Positions 1 to 3,818 of a stretch of DNA of 64,000 nucleotides are shown one piece after another. Position 1 is the first letter of the stretch, and the number at the start of each line of letters is the position of its first letter. The notes below the pieces were generated by a model. The model was given only the letters and a program-made list of their open reading frames with translations. It had not been told where the DNA came from and made no database searches. The stretch spans positions 1 to 64,000 of the forward strand of contig RFYV01000001.1 of assembly GCA_009921265.1 (NCBI GenBank). Reading direction: 5' to 3'. Made by a program: the position numbers and the translations under genes. This DNA is from Betaproteobacteria bacterium. Its GTDB lineage: Bacteria > Pseudomonadota > Gammaproteobacteria > Burkholderiales > Burkholderiaceae_C.

Positions 1-258
1 TCCGCTTTCAATGGCCAAGGTATTGAATTCAATCAATGGATTGGCGGCAATGCCTGTGTGTAATTTGGCGCGAAACACTTCAATGCCGTTGTACAGACAA
101 ATGAAATCGGTGAGGATGTCGCGCTCGATGCGTTGACCGTTTTCATTGTGTCTAAATCCATTTTCCATGGGGTGTTGCGCCAAGGCGCGAACGGTGATCA
201 ATTGGTCACGTGTTGCTTTGGGTGGAGCCGTAACAATGGTTCTTAAGGGGCGCGTCAT
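1..258 (-). CDS. soxZ: Sulfur oxidation carrier protein SoxZ (3' end truncated by window edge)
   Basis: Manual translation of the minus strand from ATG at 258: MTRPLRTIVTAPPKATRDQLITVRALAQHPMENGFRHNENGQRIERDILTDFICLYNGIEVFRAKLHTGIAANPLIEFNTLAIESG; matches the SoxZ pattern (HPMEtGFR, CxYNGxEVFRA, aNPlieF). Start overlaps the upstream stop (ATGA). Confidence 0.88.
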   Translation of the reverse strand, partial: MTRPLRTIVTAPPKATRDQLITVRALAQHPMENGFRHNENGQRIERDILTDFICLYNGIEVFRAKLHTGIAANPLIEFNTLAIESG

Positions 259-701
259 CTTTCCTCCGTACATGCAGAGGTGGTAACCAAGGTGTCTGCA
301 TAACCACGCCAAAAACTACCATTGCTCATTTGCGCAATGGCCCATACGCGTTGATTTTCTGCAAGGCGAACACGACTCATCACTTGTGCGCGTCCACTGC
401 GTGGCGTGAAATACGCGCTCAATATATGGGGGAGTGGATTACCTTCGGCCAACACATGAACCGATTTCACATAATCTTGTTGGGTCATTGGACTTTCAAC
501 TTGCAGCGTCATGACAACTGAGTTTCCGTTTTCAATCAGAGGTGGAATATCAAGAATGACTCGACCCGTTTGAACGATTTTATCGCCTACCAACGTTTGA
601 ATCGCTAGTTTGGCTTGATCAGGGCTTGCAAATGCAATGCTGTGAGGAGCCAGCCCGAGTGCGCTTAACCAAGTCAAGCAATCACGTCTTTGAATCGTCA
701 T
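255..701 (-). CDS. SoxY-related carrier protein with variant C-terminal arm (ends VTTSACTEER, not GGCGG)
   Basis: 148 aa with Tat-like N-terminus (MTIQRRDCLTWLSALGL) and SoxY-like domain; overlaps soxZ by 4 nt. The C-terminal Cys is kept but the flanking glycines are not. Confidence 0.85.
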   Translation of the reverse strand: MTIQRRDCLTWLSALGLAPHSIAFASPDQAKLAIQTLVGDKIVQTGRVILDIPPLIENGNSVVMTLQVESPMTQQDYVKSVHVLAEGNPLPHILSAYFTPRSGRAQVMSRVRLAENQRVWAIAQMSNGSFWRGYADTLVTTSACTEER

Positions 702-1161: not shown

Positions 1162-3354
1162 TCAAACCAAAGTTAAACCATGATTTTTGAGTGGCACAGT
1201 GCGATAGCGTTTTCCCGTTGCTTTGGCAATGGCGTTGAGCACAGCAGGTGCGGCCACACAAATCGTGGGTTCACCAATACCACCCCATTCGGCACCTCCA
1301 CCTTCGATGATGATGGTTTCAACTTTAGGCATTTGTGCAATGCGCATCGAACCAAATGTATCGAAGTTGGTTTGAACAATGCGACCGGCTTTGACCGTGC
1401 ATTCTTGTTCAAACAATGCGGATAAACCGTACACAAATGAGCCCGAAACTTGTCGCTCAATTTGTGCGGGGTTAACGGCATAGCCAGGATCGGTTGCAGC
1501 GACGATGCGGTGAATTTTGACCTTGCCATTTTTTACCGATAACTCGCAAGCAGCAGCGACAAAACTTCCAAATGCTTTCATTTGCGCAACGCCTCTGTAA
1601 ACACCTTTTGCTGGTTTTTTAGTCCAACCAATTTTTGCAGCAACAGCATTGAGTACAGCAAGATTGCGTGGATAGTCGCCCATGTATTTGCGTCTAAATG
1701 CAACGGGGTCCATACCAGCAGTTTCTGCTAATTCGTCGACAAAGCATTCAAAGAAAACAGCGTTTTGGTTTGCATTGACACCACGCCAGAATCCTGGCGG
1801 CACATGCGGGTTACGCATCGCATGATCAATCAATAAATTTGGAAATGTGTATCCAAATGCATGTTCGCCCGCATCTGCCACACCTTGAAACACCAAGGGG
1901 TCACGTCCTTTTTGTTGTTCGAGCACAGCTGGGCGAACAGCGGCCAAGATAGATTGACCCGACAAGCGCATGTGAACGCCTGTGAGGTTTTTATTGGCGT
2001 CAAAAGTACCTGTGAGTTTGCAAGCCATGACGGGGTGATAGCGACCTTGCGTCATGTCTTCTTCACGCGTCCAAATGAGTTTGATGTGAATGCCAGGTAT
2101 TTGCTTGGCAATTAACACCGCTTGTGTGGTGTAGTCTTGGAATGCACCACGACGACCAAAGCCACCACCCAAATTGATTTTGTGAACATCGCATCGATCG
2201 GATGGAATACCCGCTGCAGCAATCACCGCCGCTAAAGACGCTTCACCATCTTGTGTGGGAACCCATGCATCACAACGCTCTGGCGTCCAACGTGCAGTTG
2301 CATTCATCGGCTCCATGGGGGCGTGATTCAAGAAGGGGTAGAAATAAACGCCTTCTGTTTTGTGTACTGCAGATGTCAGCGCAGCAGGCATATCGCCCGC
2401 TTTGTTGCCCACAAAAGCTTGTTGAGCCGTTAAGCCTTCTTGAAGCATGGCGCCAATGCTTTCGCTTGATACTTGTGCATTGGGACCTTCGTCCCAAACG
2501 ATATTGACTTTATCTAAAGCAGTTTTGGCTTGCCAAAATGTTTCTGCAACCACGGCCACTGCGGTTTCGCCCACTTGCAGTACGTTTTTAACACCTTTCA
2601 TTGAAGAGGCTTGCGTTGCATCAAAGCTTTTGACTTTGCCGCCAAACACAGGACACTCTTTGATATTGGCAACCAACATATTCGGGAATTGAAGGTCGAT
2701 GCCGTAAATTTGTTTGCCATTGACTTTGTTGCGAGTATCTAATCGACGTATACGCTTGCCAATGATTTTCCATTCTTTGGGATCTTTTAATTTGATTTGT
2801 GCAGGAGCTGGAACGGGCAGCTTGGCGGCGGCATCTGCAACTTTGCCGTAAGAAATTTTGCGTGCGCTTGCTGAATGCGTGATGACGCCTTTTGCAGCGG
2901 TGCATTGATCAGGACTCACGCCCCAAGTATTGGCGGCGGCTTGAATCAACATCATGCGCGCAGCAGCACCGCCTTGGCGAACGTATTCTTGTGATTCACG
3001 AATACCACGACTACCACCTGTGGAGTAACTGCCCCATACGCGTTTGCGTTTGAGACTTTCACCAGGCGTTGGATATTCGGTTGTGACTTTGCTCCAATCG
3101 CATTCGAGCTCTTCTGCAACGAGTTGAGCCAAACCTGTGAGGGTGCCTTGCCCCATTTCAGAGCGAACAATGCGCACAACAACTGTTTCATCGGGTTGAA
3201 TGACTACCCATACGCCGATTTCGGGTGCGGCATCAGCGGCAACTGCTTGTGTGGGGTTTAAAAGCATGGGGATTCCCAATGCCAGGCCAGAGCCCATGGC
3301 TGCTGTACCGCCCATGAATTGACGACGCGTTGGTGTTGAAAGAATTTCGTTCAT
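1162..3354 (-). CDS. Xanthine dehydrogenase-family molybdopterin-binding subunit, IorB-like, Tat-exported
   Basis: Tat signal TRRQFMGGTAAMGSGLALG; GGGFGRR, PPGFWRGVNANQNAVFFECFVDELA and GGGAEWGGIGEPTICVAAPAVLNAI motifs of IorB/aldehyde-oxidase-type subunits. Likely start MNEILSTPTRRQF at 3354. Confidence 0.92.
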   Translation of the reverse strand: MNEILSTPTRRQFMGGTAAMGSGLALGIPMLLNPTQAVAADAAPEIGVWVVIQPDETVVVRIVRSEMGQGTLTGLAQLVAEELECDWSKVTTEYPTPGESLKRKRVWGSYSTGGSRGIRESQEYVRQGGAAARMMLIQAAANTWGVSPDQCTAAKGVITHSASARKISYGKVADAAAKLPVPAPAQIKLKDPKEWKIIGKRIRRLDTRNKVNGKQIYGIDLQFPNMLVANIKECPVFGGKVKSFDATQASSMKGVKNVLQVGETAVAVVAETFWQAKTALDKVNIVWDEGPNAQVSSESIGAMLQEGLTAQQAFVGNKAGDMPAALTSAVHKTEGVYFYPFLNHAPMEPMNATARWTPERCDAWVPTQDGEASLAAVIAAAGIPSDRCDVHKINLGGGFGRRGAFQDYTTQAVLIAKQIPGIHIKLIWTREEDMTQGRYHPVMACKLTGTFDANKNLTGVHMRLSGQSILAAVRPAVLEQQKGRDPLVFQGVADAGEHAFGYTFPNLLIDHAMRNPHVPPGFWRGVNANQNAVFFECFVDELAETAGMDPVAFRRKYMGDYPRNLAVLNAVAAKIGWTKKPAKGVYRGVAQMKAFGSFVAAACELSVKNGKVKIHRIVAATDPGYAVNPAQIERQVSGSFVYGLSALFEQECTVKAGRIVQTNFDTFGSMRIAQMPKVETIIIEGGGAEWGGIGEPTICVAAPAVLNAIAKATGKRYRTVPLKNHGLTLV

Positions 3355-3368
3355 GATTGTTTTTCCTT

Positions 3369-3818
3369 TCAAGACTTGGAAACGCTGTGAATGGCTGCAC
3401 GAACTTCTTGAAAAGTTCCACAACGACAAATATTGGTGATCGCTTCATCAATATCTGCATCGGTTGGTTTTGGTTTTTTTCTGAGTAAAGCAGTGGTGGC
3501 CATCACCATGCCGCTTTGGCAATAACCGCACTGGGGCACTTCGTGTTGCACCCAAGCTTTTTGAATTTTCGAGAGTTGACCTTGTTTTTCTAAACTCTCA
3601 ATGGTTTCGATTTTTTGGTTGCTAATGGCGCTTAAAGGAATCACACAAGTACGAACGGCTTCACCATCCATCAACACAGTGCATGCACCGCATTGCGCAA
3701 CACCGCATCCATATTTGGTACCTGTCATGCCCAATTGTTCTCGGATGACCCATAGAAGTGGCGTGTTGGGGTCTGCATCGACTGTGTGAATTTTTCCGTT
3801 TACATTGATTTTGGTCAT
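3369..3818 (-). CDS. (2Fe-2S)-binding subunit of molybdenum hydroxylase, IorA-like
   Basis: YGCGVAQCGACTVLMDGEAVRTC and CGYCQSGMVM / NICRCGTFQEVRAAI cysteine motifs of the two [2Fe-2S] clusters. Confidence 0.94.
   Translation of the reverse strand: MTKINVNGKIHTVDADPNTPLLWVIREQLGMTGTKYGCGVAQCGACTVLMDGEAVRTCVIPLSAISNQKIETIESLEKQGQLSKIQKAWVQHEVPQCGYCQSGMVMATTALLRKKPKPTDADIDEAITNICRCGTFQEVRAAIHSVSKS

Follow-up and report, generated by a model that had tools for sequence, protein, structure and literature searches.

What does a SoxY-type sulfur carrier do when its swinging arm has lost the GGCGG ending? The question is raised by a gene, here called soxY', at one end of a 64,000-nucleotide stretch of a betaproteobacterial genome (the window; GenBank assembly GCA_009921265.1, contig RFYV01000001.1, positions 1 to 64,000). 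SoxY' probably serves a second sulfur-carrier pathway that is still uncharacterized. The most informative fact about it is its linkage to an IorAB-type molybdenum hydroxylase, which was missed in a preliminary description of this DNA.

The SoxY' carrier and its swinging arm

The soxY' gene lies on the minus strand at 255 to 701 and encodes a SoxY-related AACIE-arm carrier of 148 amino acids. Its reading frame is intact, with an ATG start, a TGA stop at 257-255, and the C-terminus ADTLVTTSACTEER. The protein ends in VTTSACTEER, directly before the stop; these ten swinging-arm codons occupy 258 to 287 (minus strand), with Cys144 at 270-272. The gene overlaps both neighbors by 4 nt: its stop codon shares the letters ATGA with the start of soxZ' (ATG at 258-256), and soxX' overlaps soxY' at 698-701. 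The preliminary description had read the arm from the minus strand, with the Cys kept and GGCGG lost, and had reported the soxZ overlap; its coordinates and residues are exact.

The closest relative, L003 (85% amino acid identity), has an identical arm, with synonymous changes inside the arm codons, and 20 other relatives have near-identical arms. A143, C144, T145, and E146 do not vary across 19 aligned SoxY' relatives, among which R5 and R6 of a twin-arginine signal are also invariant. Pairwise dN/dS between SoxY' and L003 is ∼0.06, a rough, indicative value given a dS of ∼1.6. The assembly is fragmented, with 267 contigs, and that of soxY' breaks off 255 bp from the gene, but the idea that a frameshift or assembly error masks a GGCGG end, or that soxY' is a decaying paralog or pseudogene, is already refuted by these related sequences and by a soxZ' that stays in frame past the overlap, and its probability is negligible.

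An HMM search places SoxY' in a named family. Against NCBIfam TIGR04487, “SoxY-related AACIE arm protein,” it scores 179.5 bits (cutoff, 172) over profile positions 2 to 146 of 146, whereas it falls far below the true-SoxY model TIGR04488 (73.8 bits; cutoff, 125). The AACIE-arm family had been named in the preliminary description, correctly as it turns out, and neither of the outcomes named there as fatal to that reading, a best match to canonical SoxY or a sequence error hiding GGCGG, was found. The Pfam SoxY model PF13501 also matches (E = 5e-25). The model for quinoprotein-associated, fused SoxYZ-like carriers (TIGR04557) gives 51 bits against a cutoff of 140, which excludes that identity, and here Y and Z are separate genes. 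The best fold match of the AlphaFold2 model of SoxY' (mean pLDDT, 73.5) is SoxY of the Paracoccus SoxYZ complex (2oxg; TMt, 0.81); the nine C-terminal residues of the model (140 to 148) have pLDDT below 50, as would be expected of a flexible arm. The arm is of the AAC type, with the motif SACTE, an acidic residue after the Cys, and no GGCGG. Both marks of a true SoxY, a GGCGG end and linkage to soxB, are missing: the arm is SACTEER and the operon lacks soxB.

Phylogeny gives the same division. In a tree of 107 SoxYs, built with the arm left out of the alignment, all IorAB-linked SoxYs, together with two whose only link is to soxXA, split from all canonical SoxYs with branch support of 97/90. 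The curated cutoff and the tree together exclude true SoxY identity. The TIGR04487 cutoff of 172 bits reaches just 17 of the 47 genomes of the order that carry the clade, so many clade members are probably named otherwise in databases.

Linkage to a molybdenum hydroxylase

The neighbors of soxY' in the window all lie on the minus strand. The soxZ' gene (1 to 258) encodes a SoxZ-like partner (PF08770, 61 bits). Contig C1 ends at window base 1, so that only 85 of the ∼109 residues of SoxZ' remain and the next gene is missing. The cut protein scores 57.1 bits against TIGR04490, under the cutoff of 76, and the full L003 homolog scores 74.9 bits. Upstream of soxY', soxX' (698 to 1144) encodes a c-type cytochrome SoxX with a CLLCH heme motif and a conserved Met (TIGR04485, 74.4 bits; cutoff, 61). 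Further upstream lie iorB (1162 to 3354), for a xanthine-oxidase-family molybdenum subunit (PF02738/PF20256) with a twin-arginine signal (TIGR01409) and the catalytic Glu in GIGEPT, and iorA (3369 to 3818), for the [2Fe-2S] subunit (PF01799, PF00111). With its MoCo-binding domains, [2Fe-2S] subunit, and catalytic Glu, the pair is a xanthine-oxidase-family hydroxylase of the IorAB type; the best solved homolog of IorB is 8gy3_C, an aldehyde dehydrogenase large subunit. Beside the window's genes there is no flavoprotein of the FCSD type (flavocytochrome c sulfide dehydrogenase type; SoxF in sox clusters), and scans for promoters and terminators did no better than chance.

Elsewhere in the genome, contig C206 carries the second, canonical SoxY that the preliminary description had proposed to look for. 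It ends in VTLGGCGG and belongs to a complete operon, soxC-soxD-soxY-soxZ-soxA-soxX-soxB, with an FCSD-type flavoprotein ∼2 kb upstream; thiosulfate oxidation is therefore provided for apart from SoxY'. A search of the genome with L003 SoxA' returned canonical SoxA alone. The soxA' gene is missing from this assembly, yet it directly follows soxZ' in nearly all relatives with soxX'.

Protein searches recovered the order iorA-iorB-soxX'-soxY'-soxZ'-soxA' in 21 relatives, wherever the contig permits. The same iorA-to-soxA' order recurs in further Burkholderiales and in alphaproteobacterial genomes, as well as on plasmids of Neorhizobium and Methylobacterium, whose genes NCBI annotates as (2Fe-2S)-binding protein, molybdopterin cofactor-binding protein, SoxX, SoxY-related AACIE arm protein, SoxZ, and SoxA. 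In several lineages (L144-L149, L057, L164, and L165), iorB and soxX' are separated by an FCSD-type flavoprotein; in L165, a short protein annotated as cytochrome C is inserted there too. In three sampled genomes (L080, L081, and L092), iorBA is divergent from soxXYZA. An XdhC/MobA-type maturation protein is encoded next to the cluster in one lineage. Four loci (L015, L016, L023, and L069) have two tandem iorAB-type hydroxylase sets directly ahead of soxX'Y'Z'A'. Three IorB copies (G225:C13:184870-187092, G180:C1:296042-298261, and G012:C11:264584-266755) have one in-frame stop each in the matched stretch and could be decaying paralogs or sequencing errors.

The cluster also has a minimal form, iorA-iorB-soxY'-soxZ', without soxX' or soxA' (L063, L066, L067, L070, L073, L074, L088, and L089). 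Arms of this form carry Gly after the Cys (ITGCG, VAGCGL, SDCGL, and TACGG). Other arrangements were seen as well. L075 has soxX'Y'Z'A' without iorAB, an arm of TACLDASDIT, and SoxC/SoxD-like genes nearby on the opposite strand. L079 and L172 are divergent iorAB-soxY'Z'A' loci with the arm GSACYDGT; soxA' is present and there is no soxX. A SoxYZ-only group (L128, L130, L132, and L138) has GGCAG or GGCAN arms and no other sox genes recognized nearby, and further SoxYZ pairs (L076, L078, and L163) have AASGCGM or ATNGCK arms, with an FCSD flavoprotein adjoining L076 and L163.

How tight is the link to IorAB? We sampled 250 genomes of the order, calling SoxY' present at 98 bits or more to TIGR04487 and IorB at E <1e-150. 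SoxY' occurs in 47 of them, and IorB in all 47; at 46 of the 52 SoxY' loci, an IorB gene is found within 7 kb. The association has a Fisher P of ∼1e-43, uncorrected for shared ancestry. It holds in one direction only, since iorAB pairs of related type also occur alone, without soxYZ. Neither soxB nor soxCD is part of the SoxY' operon.

Arm type follows the partner. SoxB-linked SoxYs end in GGCGG in 27/27 cases, whereas none of the 55 arms linked to both iorAB and soxXA does so, and 53 of these 55 have D or E at Cys+2. Among iorAB-linked loci without soxXA, 8/11 have a C-G arm end. These C-G loci form a single clade (99/96), so the contrast between arms with and without soxXA amounts to roughly a single event, and acidic arms are retained at three further loci that lack soxXA (L058, L082, and L086). 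Hence, we do not claim that arm type proves adaptation to soxXA loss.

The partners keep their functional residues. SoxA positions were transferred by alignment with a PDB structure, and their roles, including those of the Arg residues proposed to bind thiosulfate, are taken from previous work (PMC4423706). All 53 SoxA' sequences retain both CxxCH motifs, the active-site heme ligand Cys, and the two invariant Arg, which excludes lost catalysis; L003 SoxA' passes TIGR04484 at 197.9 bits (cutoff, 110). The heme C, C, and H and the ligand Met of SoxX' are conserved in 52/52 relatives, and the catalytic Glu of IorB is kept in 66/66. The IorAB-SoxX'Y'Z'A' set is thus predicted to be enzymatically live and, given the conserved Arg residues of SoxA', able to bind an anionic thiol. 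At the level of genes, the analysis establishes that three components are encoded together, apart from canonical sox: a carrier of the SoxYZ type whose arm has a single Cys, the cytochromes SoxX and SoxA with their catalytic and heme residues intact (SoxA' from relatives), and a molybdenum/[2Fe-2S] hydroxylase with a Tat export signal.

Possible functions of the SoxY' system

We tentatively propose a dedicated periplasmic system, IorAB-SoxX'Y'Z'(A'), with SoxY' as its carrier subunit, in which a thiol is loaded by SoxXA' and the conjugate is processed by IorAB. SoxXA' would oxidatively couple a small thiol (R-SH), probably an anionic one, to Cys144 of the arm, forming a mixed disulfide; this step is modeled on SoxAX and thiosulfate. 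The SACTE/AACLE-type arm, with its bulkier residues and an acidic one at Cys+2, may then offer the conjugate to IorAB instead of to SoxB/SoxCD. IorAB would hydroxylate or oxidize the carrier-bound group, or finish an organosulfur compound whose sulfur parks on the carrier, and its electrons would pass via [2Fe-2S] to c-type cytochromes. Where the operon includes an FCSD, as it does in several lineages, this may reoxidize sulfane sulfur left on the carrier. Several points count against this scheme. Some iorAB-soxY'Z' loci lack soxXA, so loading by SoxXA' cannot be universal, and related IorAB pairs stand alone. The substrates of xanthine-oxidase-family enzymes are free small molecules, attacked at C-H or aldehyde groups, and we know of no such enzyme that acts on a carrier-bound substrate.

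The strongest competitor, which we regard as unlikely but deserving of attention, is that SoxY' is an ordinary isoform of the Sox carrier. SoxXA'Y'Z' would bind thiosulfate or sulfide-derived sulfane and pass it to canonical SoxB/SoxCD, and IorAB would be a co-regulated but chemically unrelated aldehyde or heterocycle oxidase. SoxX' and SoxA' do pass the curated SoxX and SoxA models, some operons include an FCSD flavoprotein, and most carriers, the window's genome included, have canonical SoxB. The Arg residues proposed for thiosulfate binding are retained in SoxA', and this is equally compatible with thiosulfate as the substrate. However, SoxB is above the cutoff in only 33/47 SoxY' genomes, and whole genera have SoxY' clusters without it: the full iorAB-soxX'Y'Z'A' set occurs without SoxB in all four sampled genomes of g18 and all three of g11. 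The absence of GGCGG from every arm linked to iorAB and soxXA, and the adjacency of iorAB in nearly all SoxY' loci, also speak against a plain isoform.

Published data point the same way. Starkeya novella has a second sox cluster, noted in 2013, that consists of soxX2Y2Z2A2F2 and a xanthine-oxidase-family molybdenum enzyme (Snov_1975/1976) and has no SoxB or SoxCD; it is barely transcribed on glucose, methanol, or thiosulfate, and its SoxAX and SoxYZ went undetected (PMC3797975). In Bradyrhizobium diazoefficiens, thiosulfate oxidation requires soxY1 of locus I and not soxY2 (PMC5748708), and we infer that the dispensable soxY2 belongs to the SoxY' group. For the SoxY' system, the SoxB-free genomes indicate INDEPENDENCE from thiosulfate oxidation, and the published data agree. 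The suggestion in the preliminary description that the cargo of the carrier may differ from standard thiosulfate-derived sulfur thereby gains indirect support, from the operon partners, the soxB-free genomes, and the lack of expression in S. novella. Thiosulfate appears a less likely substrate than an organic thiol or another sulfane.

The minimal iorAB-soxY'Z' form, as we read it, points to IorAB as the partner with which the carrier directly functions. It favors over the plain isoform either processing by the hydroxylase, as proposed above, or a maintenance role, of which we think much less. In the maintenance role, SoxY'Z' would bring periplasmic sulfane sulfur to sulfurate or resulfurate the molybdenum center of IorAB, because the exported enzyme cannot go back to cytoplasmic XdhC-type sulfuration, and SoxXA' and FCSD would load or clear the carrier. 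Besides the fact that iorAB-soxY'Z' alone is the smallest conserved unit, SoxYZ-like proteins are also linked to PQQ alcohol dehydrogenases, another class of periplasmic dehydrogenase (TIGR04557; PMC12997753). On the other hand, related iorAB pairs manage without soxYZ, the maturation protein beside the cluster in one lineage is itself of the XdhC/MobA type, and periplasmic resulfuration is without precedent.

A final alternative, improbable in our judgment, involves no sulfur oxidation: the arm Cys would hold an aldehyde as a hemithioacetal, IorAB would oxidize it, and the resulting thioester would be hydrolyzed. This would suit the aldehyde dehydrogenase (8gy3) that is the closest solved homolog of IorB, and a SoxH-type metallohydrolase adjoins the PQQ-linked SoxYZ-like carriers (PMC12997753). 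However, we identified no metallohydrolase within SoxY' operons, whose neighbors are annotated in part, and both the FCSD flavoprotein and the intact Cys-ligated heme chemistry of SoxXA' speak for thiol or sulfane chemistry.

It is tempting to go further than a dedicated carrier system. There could be a second Sox-type pathway that does not depend on thiosulfate oxidation and is widespread among beta- and alphaproteobacteria. Its molybdenum hydroxylase, of the xanthine oxidase family, would take the place of SoxCD/SoxB and act on an organosulfur group tethered to the SoxY' arm, so that an enzyme that hydroxylates C-H groups would be working on a substrate bound to a protein. This broader version we offer as a rather doubtful possibility.

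Significance and comparison with known systems

The SoxY' family is already named in NCBIfam, and one cluster with the same gene content was described in 2013. Our literature search for AACIE or for SoxYZ with xanthine dehydrogenase returned one passing description (PMC3797975), and, in a search thin on subscription papers, we found no paper on the order-wide IorAB linkage, the SoxB-free genera, or the correlation between arm and partner. A 2024 survey of SoxY dropped sequences without GGC, which puts the SoxY' group outside its coverage (PMC11237559). With its almost exclusive link to IorAB, a family that had been an orphan now comes with a two-enzyme hypothesis that can be tested. If the molybdenum hydroxylase does act on sulfur compounds bound to the carrier, organic sulfur would have a new route of turnover in the periplasm. 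There is also a practical consequence. Databases label the cytochromes and SoxZ of SoxY' clusters as thiosulfate-oxidation genes, so metagenomic counts of soxX, soxA, and soxZ, and of SoxY when it is called with a broad model like that of Pfam, can give wrong numbers of thiosulfate oxidizers; the freshwater Polynucleobacter and Limnohabitans would be among those affected.

How does SoxY' compare with systems already known? Within TIGR04487 (SoxY_para_1), it shares the full-length match and an arm of the form [S/A]AC[T/L/I][E/D], and members on Neorhizobium and Methylobacterium plasmids have the same annotated neighborhood; the namesake arm is AACIE, and that of the window is SACTEER instead. 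The second cluster of S. novella, likened here by gene content alone, has the same SoxX, SoxY, SoxZ, SoxA, and xanthine-oxidase-family enzyme, but it holds an FCSD-type SoxF2, which is lacking beside the window's genes. Canonical SoxYZ (TIGR04488/TIGR04490; PDB 2oxg and 4uwq) shares the fold, the arm Cys, the Tat-type export signal, and the SoxZ partner; unlike it, SoxY' has no GGCGG and no linkage to soxB or soxCD, and it falls in a separate clade. IorAB/AldFGH-type hydroxylases (PDB 8gy3) resemble the window's IorAB in their Tat-exported molybdenum and [2Fe-2S] subunits and catalytic Glu, but the window's IorAB is encoded together with a SoxXYZA set. Finally, the TIGR04557 carrier is, like SoxY'Z', a SoxYZ-like carrier tied to a periplasmic dehydrogenase; it differs in its fused Y and Z, its PQQ enzyme, and its SoxH-like hydrolase.
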